Shown: positions 51,474 to 57,503 of the stretch, piece after piece
Numbering within the stretch: position 1 is the stretch's first letter
Layout of the letters: each line of letters opens with the position of its first letter
NCBI GenBank assembly: GCA_000720535.1
Contig: JOAZ01000016.1
Coordinates: forward strand, 98,880-162,879
From: Streptomyces halstedii
Lineage (GTDB): Bacteria; Actinomycetota; Actinomycetes; Streptomycetales; Streptomycetaceae
Length of the DNA: 64,000 nucleotides
Reading direction: 5' to 3'
Notes under the pieces: generated by a model
What the model saw: the letters and a program-made list of their open reading frames with translations, nothing else
Databases searched by the model: none
What the model was told of the DNA's origin: nothing
Translations under genes and position numbers: made by a program

Positions 51474-53000
51474 ATGCCGTCGTACCTCACCCCGGGCGTC
51501 TACGTGGAGGAGGTGCAGTCCGGAGCACGGCCCATCGAGGGAGTCGGCACCGCCGTGGCCGCCTTCGTCGGCTTCGCGCAGACCGGCCCCTTCCACGAGC
51601 CGACCCTGGTGACGAACTGGGACCAGTACGTGCAGACGTTCGGCACGTTCAGCCCGGACACGTACCTGTCGCACGCGGTCTACGGCTACTTCGCCAACGG
51701 CGGCGGCACGGCCTACGTCGTCCGTATCGGCGGTCCCGCCCAGGGCGCGGAGCCGGAGGCGGGCGCACGGCCGGTGGAGCCGGTGGCGATCGGCGGTTTC
51801 CTGGTCGCGGCACGCCCCGGCGCCGGTACGGACCTCTCCGTTGAGGTCGCGGACGCGGAGGGCGAGAACCCGCCGGAGGACCGCTTCAGGCTGCTGGTCC
51901 GGCAGAGCGGCAAGGTGGTGGAGACCTACGAGGCCTCCACCCGCAAGAGCGTCAAGGGCTATCTGGTCAACCAGGCACGGGACTCCAAGCTCATCGAGGT
52001 CACCGAGCAGACGGGGGTGGCGCCGAGCCGTCCCGAGCGGCAGAGCGTCGGCCTCGCGTCGGCCCCCGCCCCGAGTGCCGGGGTCGCCCGGCTCGACGCG
52101 GCCGAGTACGTGGGCGACGCGGCGGCCCGGACCGGATTCGCCGGTCTGGAGGCGATCGACGAGATCACCATGGTCGCGGTGCCGGACCTGATGAGCGCGT
52201 ACCGGCGGGGCGACCTGGACGCCGAGGGCGTCAAGACCGTCCAGCTGGCGGTGATCTCGCACTGCGAGCAGATGGGCGACCGGGTCGCCGTCCTGGACAC
52301 CCCGCCGTCGATGAACGCGCAGCGGGTCCGTACCTGGCGCAACGAGGACACCGGGTTCGACTCGCGGTACGCCACCGTGTACTACCCCTGGGTCAAGGTG
52401 TTCGACCCGGCGAGCGGCCGGAACACGATGGTGCCGCCGAGCGGCCATGTCGCCGGGGTGTGGGCGCGCAGCGACGCCGAGCGGGGGGTGCACAAGGCCC
52501 CGGCCAACGAGGTCATCCGCGGGGCGGTGGACCTGGAGCTGCGCCTGAGCAAGGGCGAGCAGGACCTGCTCAACCCGATCGGCGTCAACTGCGTCCGTGC
52601 CTTCCCCGGGCGCGGTATCCGGATCTGGGGGGCGCGGACGCTCTCCTCGGACCCGGCGTGGCGCTACCTCAACGTGCGGCGGCTCTTCAACTACCTGGAG
52701 GAGTCGATCCTGCTGGGCACCCAGTGGGTGGTCTTCGAGCCGAACGACGACCGGCTGTGGTCGAGCATCCGGCGCAACGTCACCGCCTTCCTCACCGAGG
52801 AGTGGCGCCGGGGCGCGCTCTTCGGCCGTACGGCGGAGGAGGCGTTCTACGTGAAGTGCGACCGGCAGAACAACCCGCAGGAGTCGATCGACCTCGGCCG
52901 GGTGGTCTGCGAGATCGGTGTCGCCCCGGTGAAACCGGCGGAGTTCGTGGTGTTCCGGCTCGCGCAGTTCTCGGACAGCACCAGCCTCGTCGACGAGTGA
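51474..53000 (+). CDS. cis2: Contractile sheath protein
   Basis: A 508-aa tail sheath protein. The conserved start YLTPGVYVEEVQSGARPIEGVGTAVAAFVGFAQTGP and end segments (RRLFNYLEESILLGTQWVVFEPNDDRLWSSIRRNVTAFL, GRTAEEAFYVKCDRQNN) define domains I and II of the phage/CIS sheath family. It would polymerise around the inner tube and contract to drive it out. A 256-bp gap upstream without another gene makes this the likely start of a transcript for the structural operon; AAGGAGCGAGC is the ribosome-binding site. Only one sheath gene is present, unlike the several in Afp or PVC. Confidence 0.96.
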   Translation: MPSYLTPGVYVEEVQSGARPIEGVGTAVAAFVGFAQTGPFHEPTLVTNWDQYVQTFGTFSPDTYLSHAVYGYFANGGGTAYVVRIGGPAQGAEPEAGARPVEPVAIGGFLVAARPGAGTDLSVEVADAEGENPPEDRFRLLVRQSGKVVETYEASTRKSVKGYLVNQARDSKLIEVTEQTGVAPSRPERQSVGLASAPAPSAGVARLDAAEYVGDAAARTGFAGLEAIDEITMVAVPDLMSAYRRGDLDAEGVKTVQLAVISHCEQMGDRVAVLDTPPSMNAQRVRTWRNEDTGFDSRYATVYYPWVKVFDPASGRNTMVPPSGHVAGVWARSDAERGVHKAPANEVIRGAVDLELRLSKGEQDLLNPIGVNCVRAFPGRGIRIWGARTLSSDPAWRYLNVRRLFNYLEESILLGTQWVVFEPNDDRLWSSIRRNVTAFLTEEWRRGALFGRTAEEAFYVKCDRQNNPQESIDLGRVVCEIGVAPVKPAEFVVFRLAQFSDSTSLVDE

Positions 53001-53124
53001 CCCCGGGGCCCACCGGCGGCCCGCCCGCGGCCGGCAACGGCCGCACCCCGGCCCTACCCCGGCCCTACCCCGGCCTTTCCACAGCCTTTGCACGGCCTTC
53101 GAACAGAAAAGGTGACAGAGAATC

Positions 53125-57200: not shown

Positions 57201-57503
57201 CCGCCTCCCGGGGTGTCGGCCGCCGCCGGGGCGGCATCGCGGGCGGCCCTCCAACGGGCGGTCTCCGACGCGGGGATCAGCGGGGTTCCCGTGACCGCCG
57301 TCCCCGCCAGGCCCCCGGCCGCACCGGGCGGCTCGGCCGGTAACCGGTCGGCCCGGGAGACGCGGACGTCCGCGCCACCGGCTCCCGGCCCGGACATGGA
57401 GGAACTCGCCCGCAAGCTGCTCGAACCGGTGAGCCGGCTGCTGCGCGCCGACATGCGCCGGGGCCTGGAACGCACCGGGCGGCTGTACGACGGCCGGCGC
57501 TGA
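54204..57503 (+). CDS. 1,099-aa disordered Pro/Ala/Arg-rich CIS protein, tape-measure candidate
   Basis: A very large low-complexity protein. The ordered parts seem limited to the start (MGFGAWFRREERR), a segment near 70-110 (VSDGLRFRSGLASWQNPAFGGELGHAVLP, which looks like a short docking motif) and the last 35 residues (MEELARKLLEPVSRLLRADM), an amphipathic helix. In between are Pro/Ala/Ser/Arg/Gly tracts with scattered VQR motifs and tandem repeats (30-bp units near 54810-54910, 27-bp units near 55263-55350). GAAGGTGG lies 8 nt before ATG 54204. Its place after the chaperone-like genes is that of a tape-measure gene. The function is unknown; a scaffold or cargo linker is also possible. Confidence 0.75.
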   Translation: MGFGAWFRREERRAAVPVPPEAPGDSGGPGDSGGPTEVAPGAVGAGGDVRGADWDGGWQRVAPPTVTVARSSIGVSDGLRFRSGLASWQNPAFGGELGHAVLPSAPVGLIHGVARPAAPAPATSRGGPLLLRAVTPEPEAGAGPPAAGPAVPTARMSPPRHARTEAARRGRPTPPVPGRAGDAPEAARDTGRDAGRATVQRTASGQGTRGAEAGQGTRSAEAGRGTRDAIAGRGTASRTPVAPPRTRSEAAAGAGRAAAGAVTGSPEAGQGPRTPDPLPRARPAGVRPHPSRPSLVVARRPVMAVRQVSAVPAAVDRVRAAAPAPRPEPAAQDSAPVSGNTRDAPRTSGDTPRDASSSARQRNASSRAPQGDASSPAPQDGPEGDRVLRSATTPQGRTAPGPEAVRPALGAPLRQLPPGATPVAPGDRASAGPGAPGRDAAGLPVLQRSVVSGPSASPAPSPAAGASPVPAARGGSARPQPGPSSPAPPAARTGHAGSDTGRPGADKGRTGAEGTASGTSAGPRSPRTPADRPRQHGGIGAPLAALPPTAAPATGSRSPAAARTTPPAGHASAASGPAPLLGAGRPVRRRTGPAPAVDPVTPDGPGTSPASGPSHPGETVAMPVRTPDGPPGTSPSAGAPAAVQRTAQSGPTTLSAAGVRPSSADTLHAGPGPAARPGTAAHRAPGPRTPDTSAPNRRDGSASAAVPGATVAPALGSSLSDPVGAPMPTVVQRSRSLLADRPLSVSTGAGEGFSAPPAPSGTSRPVVTPSWRRDTPPARPAGSPAPQPSPNPASSSTPPSKTPPKTPPPNRRTAPDERRAPDGRNDPPRAATPPAPARTGLLRRVQRARTTTPPPVTAPAPPAAPGGEPVAGRTGRADARGSAREEGAPSVRRAYGSPAAARPPLPTAASPALAGAAPGGAGSSSVPVVRPHPPAPFGGAGPVVPVQRLPMPVTDGPARPTAAGPSTVPASAPPLPAVRAAIPRAPAQSAGAAYPDPVPPPPGVSAAAGAASRAALQRAVSDAGISGVPVTAVPARPPAAPGGSAGNRSARETRTSAPPAPGPDMEELARKLLEPVSRLLRADMRRGLERTGRLYDGRR

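Follow-up and report, generated by a model that had tools for sequence, protein, structure and literature searches.

What do two small overlapping open reading frames (ORFs), lodged between a tube gene and a giant gene in a bacterial contractile injection system (CIS), encode: two separate proteins, or one protein and its frameshifted extension? The question is raised by a CIS cluster of Streptomyces halstedii, contained in the 64,000 nucleotides (nt) of contig JOAZ01000016.1 (positions 98,880 to 162,879) that were analysed here and are called the window. Coordinates are window positions, and every CIS feature to which we assign them lies on the + strand. From the sheath gene onward, the genes run in the order sheath (51474..53000), inner tube protein 1 (53125..53565), a 160-amino-acid (aa) ORF that we call A (53562..54044), a 52-aa ORF in the -1 frame that we call B (54041..54199), and a giant ORF (54204..57503); these coordinates agree with the order given in an earlier note on this DNA. 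That note proposed, on the model of phages P2 and Mu, that a programmed -1 frameshift links A and B into a pair of tail assembly chaperones, and that the giant gene encodes the tape measure. The first proposal is strongly supported by the homology of B to P2 gpE', the conservation of the site, relatives in which B lacks a start codon, natural fusions and a downstream stem-loop, whereas the second finds no support beyond the position of the gene. Judging from sequence comparisons, A and B very probably correspond, in the CIS, to the paired tail assembly chaperones of phages, of the P2 gpE / gpE+E' kind, and are produced by a -1 frameshift.

B belongs to DUF6760 (Pfam, 1.1e-13). When a profile of 130 B sequences was compared with one of seven P2-like gpE' proteins, the two aligned over 44 columns (hhalign probability 90.7, E 1.3e-6) with a score of 33.9; the maximum among 100 column-shuffled controls was 17.4, so that 0/100 reached the real value. 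P2 gpE' alone matched the B profile at E 3.7e-6. On these profiles, B is related to P2 gpE', which is the frameshift-only part of P2 gpE+E' according to the record annotation and PMC3091744. Direct tblastn searches of phages with A and B gave weak matches at best; the best one for B (E 1) lies between a tail assembly protein and the tape measure of Pseudomonas phage PG1. The model of B consists of helices only (mean pLDDT 85). Foldseek found no match to it at E <= 0.001, with tail assembly chaperones among the weak matches, including a protein of Burkholderia phage Mica (E 0.97).

The relationship of A was approached through both sequence and structure. A matched PHROG 508, annotated as "tail assembly chaperone", at E 1.5e-4, and its profile aligned (hhalign 7.5e-17) with a divergent gp26/TAC_7-type protein of Streptomyces, from locus L068, in the first domain of the latter. 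The L068 protein itself matches Pfam Phage_TAC_7 (1.2e-7), a family whose description names chaperone proteins E, 41 or 14, and T4_baseplate (PF12322, 2.1e-10). No match between A of the window and PF12322 was found at E up to 1; this family was matched by L068, L071 and L094. In the AlphaFold model of A, residues 41-130 are confident (pLDDT 94-98 by blocks). The top Foldseek match of this model in a viral library was a phage baseplate protein (E 1.4e-7, TM about 0.5), and phage proteins named T4-like baseplate hub assembly appeared from E 3.7e-6 (TM about 0.5). Weaker matches were a tail assembly chaperone of Rhodococcus phage Finch (0.031) and the same protein of Burkholderia phage Mica, named "tape measure chaperone" (0.038).

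How, then, would B be translated? At the end of A, the zero frame reads CTG GGG GAA TCG TGA, and a slip-site sequence, the heptamer GGGGGAA, occupies 54032..54038; the earlier note had placed it correctly, except that 3 nt (TCG) and not six separate it from the TGA. A -1 slip on GGG would append to 158 residues of A the 54 aa read in the B frame from GGA (54035..54199), and the 212-aa product that had been foreseen follows from the coordinates. Read in the zero frame only, A ends with CPLC at its C terminus; read as a free ORF, B starts at a GTG within a GTGA overlap with A. The same letters permit plain translational coupling, in which ribosomes would stop at the TGA of A and restart at the overlapping GTG, the GGGGG serving as a Shine-Dalgarno sequence, and B would be made only as a separate 52-aa protein. 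In favor of coupling, GTGA or ATGA overlaps are present in most loci, the GGGGG stands 4 nt before the GTG, and in the same operon the start of the A ORF overlaps the tube stop via ATGA.

To compare junctions, 172 loci were collected, some of them representing the same strain in two collections. A recognisable A motif was present in 163; the remaining nine (L068, L069, L071, L087, L094, L149, L152, L154 and L155) were excluded. The earlier note had suggested looking for conservation of the G-run and of the -1 frame across orthologous junctions, and both are conserved: GGGGGAA is found in the final 24 nt of A in 151/163 loci, and B is in the -1 frame in 159/163 (same frame in one, B not found in three, one of which, L065, also proved to be -1 on re-inspection). 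A 15-mer, GGGGGAATCGTGACG, occurs at the junction of 138 loci. In the window as a whole, the frequency of GGGGGAA is close to chance (10 found, 10.7 expected); it is the conservation of the heptamer that departs widely from it.

Codon changes were then counted on a tree built from the rest of A, restricted to the 152 loci (142 distinct sequences) that have both the CxxC tail of A and a B in the -1 frame. Among these 142 sequences, CGC, CTG, GGG and GAA showed zero synonymous changes, the majority residue being present in 139, 136, 142 and 140 of them, respectively. Synonymous changes at other conserved columns of A numbered 11-59 for Gly, 9-26 for Leu, 16-40 for Arg and 3-24 for Glu; some two-codon residues elsewhere in A (Phe, Asp and Tyr, all C-ending) also had zero changes. 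At the slip site, GGG is used in 142/142 sequences and GAA in 140/140 distinct sequences with Glu there, and both are minor codons when A and B are pooled (GAA 322 vs GAG 1630; GGG 384 vs GGC 885, GGC being the commonest Gly codon). The junction is thus conserved as nucleotides, with about 21 nt constrained, beyond the needs of the heptamer. The constraint on CGC CTG and on GAA, needless for a Shine-Dalgarno sequence, argues against coupling. At the tube-A junction, which served as control for an ATGA overlap (76 loci), only the last two codons are also fixed (GTC 0 changes, GAA 1); this control is partial since no conserved Gly, Leu or Arg codon adjoins that overlap. Upstream of the slip site, GGTGGG (54021..54026) is a weak candidate for an internal Shine-Dalgarno-like stretch; its conserved Gly codon is GGT in 91 sequences, GGG in 43 and GGC in 8. 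In two loci (L105 and L113), the last sense codon of A is replaced by TAG, giving a TAG TGA tandem, and the -1 frame is still open.

Coupling is also difficult to reconcile with relatives in which the open -1 frame of B contains no ATG, GTG or TTG start. These are L079 and L083, from two other families of the phylum, L065, a divergent locus of Streptomyces, and several of the seven loci examined from environmental viral contigs (L184-L190). In this last group, B is start-less in L184, L185 and L186/L187 (L186 and L187 share one junction) and has a GTG in L188 and L189; in L190, B was not found. The codon at the B start position is GTA in L185 and L186. Three further loci, L068 and L069 of Streptomyces and L191 of another family, place a -1-frame B after a canonical T TTT TTA; in L191, the stretch from this slip site to the B motif is devoid of start codons.

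In 13 divergent loci (L071, L192-L198, L200, L202, L207, L246 and L247), A and B form a single uninterrupted ORF, another observation against coupling. Sheath- and tube-like sequence is present upstream in 13/13 of these loci. The fusion ORFs combine an A-like zinc-ribbon end with a B-like domain, several of them ending slightly short of the B end of L071. The second Cys of CxxC and the Trp of the B motif are 38 residues apart in 12/13 fusions (those measured by pattern); in the predicted -1 products of 152 loci, the same distance is 37 in 147, 38 in three and 39 in two. A search of viral contigs with the L071 fusion as query found no relative.

Two observations on phage-type or viral contigs were made alongside. 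L187, an IMG/VR contig listed as viral, resembles a CIS operon, with two sheath-like ORFs, a tube, A/B, a second tube and more tail genes; B is located shortly before the second tube, and there is no giant gene. In L175 (Streptomyces phage BRock, 2336-3419) and L094, a T4 gp26-like A is accompanied by a B-like ORF in the +1 (or -2) register, in which the conserved helix start of B has no start codon shortly upstream. Because of this register and the lack of a nearby B start codon, a frameshift, in a different direction, may join these phage-type pairs as well.

Downstream of the slip site, the RNA of the window can form a 12-base-pair stem that begins 2 nt past the heptamer, between a 5' arm, GUGACGUACGCG (54041..54052), and a 3' arm, CGCGUACGUCGC (54076..54087). 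Its folding had a z of -2.69, and 2/200 shuffles folded equally well. The longest stem fell in the same register in 87/95 distinct CxxC-type sequences. Pairing was assessed in a set of 37 sequences chosen to be diverse, and 90.1% of the cells were paired, vs at most 56.3% when the partner was slid. Two-sided changes were found at 4/12 stem pairs (5 cells), which 0/500 shuffles reached. When synonymous codons were resampled for 94 distinct B starts, with protein and codon usage held, the mean z was -2.0 and 94.7% were below zero; these 94 sequences are related and do not amount to 94 independent tests. In the distant L185, L187 and L189, a stem is found at nearly the same place, made of other letters. 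The stem pairs with the GTG region, which is again unfavorable to coupling.

By what we infer of slippage at GGG/GAA and its efficiency, most ribosomes would read A to its TGA. Some would slip by -1 when the tRNA-Gly on the P-site GGG re-pairs with the GGG one base earlier in the G-run; a stem-loop starting 2-7 nt downstream, and perhaps the upstream Shine-Dalgarno-like stretch, would assist. These ribosomes would then continue into B and produce the 212-aa A+B protein. By analogy with phages, A and A+B would be made in a set ratio and would act as chaperones, binding and holding a tail component during assembly.

Several observations weigh against this proposal. In the stem, two-sided changes are few (5/444 cells), the covariation score of 0.051 is barely over those of two slid controls (0.050 and 0.047), and an RNAalifold consensus did not include the stem; we retain it because of the paired cells, the common register and the codon resampling. 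With G GGG GAA, the P site is the only one where the tRNA can re-pair cleanly. As the earlier note had remarked, the heptamer is not of the X XXY YYZ form, a worry eased by the annotation, not bench-tested, of GGGGGAA in actinophage tail assembly genes. For A, a direct comparison with P2 gpE alone gave no match, and neither a sequence search nor Foldseek gave a significant match in PDB; the phage-like protein 3klu YqbN came up in Foldseek at E 1.5, short of significance. Of the start-less loci, L065, L079, L083 and L184 have a CTG at the B start position that could serve as start. In the window and in most loci, B has a GTG or ATG, so that it may also be made as a free protein. L066, which belongs to a sister branch, has a start-less B and no G-run, and may be degenerate. 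Finally, seven Actinomycetota loci of this sister branch (L085, L086, L088-L090, L092 and L093) have neither CxxC nor G-run and show ATGA/GTGA coupling, and in L090 A and B are two separate genes in one frame. Since sister-branch loci use coupling or separate genes, the sequences indicate that the A/B pair can work without fusion and that the frameshift is not universal.

Coupling, which had been named from the start as the rival of the frameshift, thus fits the sister branch and does not account for all loci, as B is start-less in some. As an explanation of the junction in the window, we consider it improbable. A second rival would make of B the spike "plug" (Cis6/Alg6/Afp6, a small protein in other systems) and not a component of a chaperone. 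B is indeed a small protein encoded near tube genes, as Afp6 is. Alg6 is required for assembly, according to PMC8894135. The all-helical model of B differs from Alg6, described there as an N-terminal strand with one C-terminal helix (PMC8894135), and neither B nor the B profile matched any phage or CIS chain in PDB. B is moreover a homologue of P2 gpE', and other loci have it fused to A; its identity as the plug is very improbable. Least probable of all is the conservation of the junction as another DNA or RNA signal, such as a site for a protein or a small RNA, or a G-run on which transcription slips: it would suit the breadth of the constraint, more than a heptamer requires, but five Gs are short for transcript slippage, the stem is kept with different letters in the distant loci, and start-less B and the fusions require joining, not such a signal. 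We therefore favor the frameshifted chaperone pair.

The surroundings of A and B are those of a CIS. The sheath protein has 508 aa (Pfam Phage_sheath_1, 1.9e-27; PHROG 23, 3.6e-88), and inner tube protein 1 has 146 aa (Pfam Phage_T4_gp19, 1.1e-26). A cap gene (Pvc16_N) and an AAA ATPase lie upstream of the sheath; the giant ORF is followed by a second inner tube protein of 141 aa (57540..57965; Pfam Phage_T4_gp19, 1.6e-33), a LysM protein, a VgrG-like spike, a gp25-like protein and baseplate J. The Streptomyces-type gene set (sheath, tubes, cap, ATPase, VgrG-like spike, gp25-like and baseplate J) is all present in the window. Immediately upstream of the cap gene, at 45013-48261, is an ORF of 1082 aa whose product combines PD40 beta-propeller repeats with DUF11 domains.

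The giant gene encodes a P/A/G-rich protein of 1099 aa from ATG 54204, or of 1107 aa from GTG 54180, and stands where a tape measure gene would be. It had no match in family libraries, Pfam and PHROG among them. Within the DNA examined, a long ORF sharing with it a conserved C-terminal motif (such as ELARRLxDPVSRLLRAELRRGRERxGR) lies downstream of B in 51/76 loci. Among relatives (L095-L174), giant ORFs contain 36-57% P, A and G. Complete motif-keeping ORFs are mostly about 750-1270 aa long, in a survey of loci from L095 on in which some ORFs run off contigs or are mis-called. PMC10066040 and PMC12237407 state that a tape measure gene is absent from the S. coelicolor CIS; the latter describes S. 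coelicolor particles as uniform in length with no tape measure gene recognised. The empty lumen of an effector mutant (PMC10066040) also makes it less likely that the tube contains a visible tape measure. With position as the one argument for it, against the missing family match, the variable length and these reports, we do not adopt the tape measure identity that had been proposed for the giant gene.

If the chaperone pair is of the phage kind, a client protein is to be expected, which would offer a testable route to what sets the length of the CIS or loads its tube. A bacterial injection machine would then make use of programmed frameshifting, in several Actinomycetota families and in environmental contigs, and gene lists that treat the A and B ORFs separately would miss the 212-aa product. 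DUF6760, a small family without assigned function, becomes linked to phage tail assembly. A broader scenario seems doubtful to us: frameshifted tail assembly chaperones would be an old shared part of one CIS branch, with P2 gpE/E', T4 gp26/gp51 and the CIS A/B forming one family maintained as a single protein with its frameshifted extension, by different slip sites, or else fused, and the giant P/A/G-rich gene would in addition be a new, unstructured tape measure of the Streptomyces CIS. The main texts of PMC10066040 and PMC12237407, on the S. coelicolor and S. venezuelae CIS, contain the word "chaperone" 0 times, and neither paper was among the CIS papers mentioning "frameshift" in a full-text search. 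In agreement with the earlier note, which knew of no chaperones or frameshifting in Streptomyces CIS, full-text literature searches, whose scope excluded most subscription papers and bioRxiv preprints, found no description of these, of a frameshifted chaperone in any CIS or tailocin, of ribosomal frameshifting in phage tail-like particles of Streptomyces, or of DUF6760.

How does the pair compare with known systems? T4 gp26 and gp51 are hub assembly proteins (PF12322, PHROG 150 and 634). The divergent relatives L068 and L071 match PF12322 (2.1e-10 and 8e-18), and the match of L071 to PHROG 150 extends into its B part; unlike T4 gp26, A of the window has one TAC-like domain instead of two and no PF12322 match. 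The likeness to P2 gpE/gpE+E', of which Mu gp41/42 is presumably the counterpart, includes the order of tube, small protein, -1-frame extension and large gene, and the homology of B to gpE', with its FHW motif. A here differs from P2 gpE in its CxxC tail, the next gene is no recognisable tape measure, and the pair serves a bacterial CIS and not a phage. P2 slips at TTTTTTG, and no hairpin was found in P2 or three relatives (PMC3091744), unlike the GGGGGAA and conserved stem seen here. The heptamer itself is the same as in actinophage tail assembly chaperones: it is the "fivetwo" motif, GGGGGAA in all of about a thousand SEA-PHAGES sites, annotated and not experimentally tested (PMC10885494), and the -1 site predicted for the tail assembly genes of corynephage phi16 (PMC5506516); these sites are in phage genomes, and the passages available from both papers are without CIS. 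The cluster is of the same kind as the CIS of S. coelicolor and S. venezuelae, with a sheath, two tubes, a cap, an ATPase, a VgrG-like spike and a baseplate.

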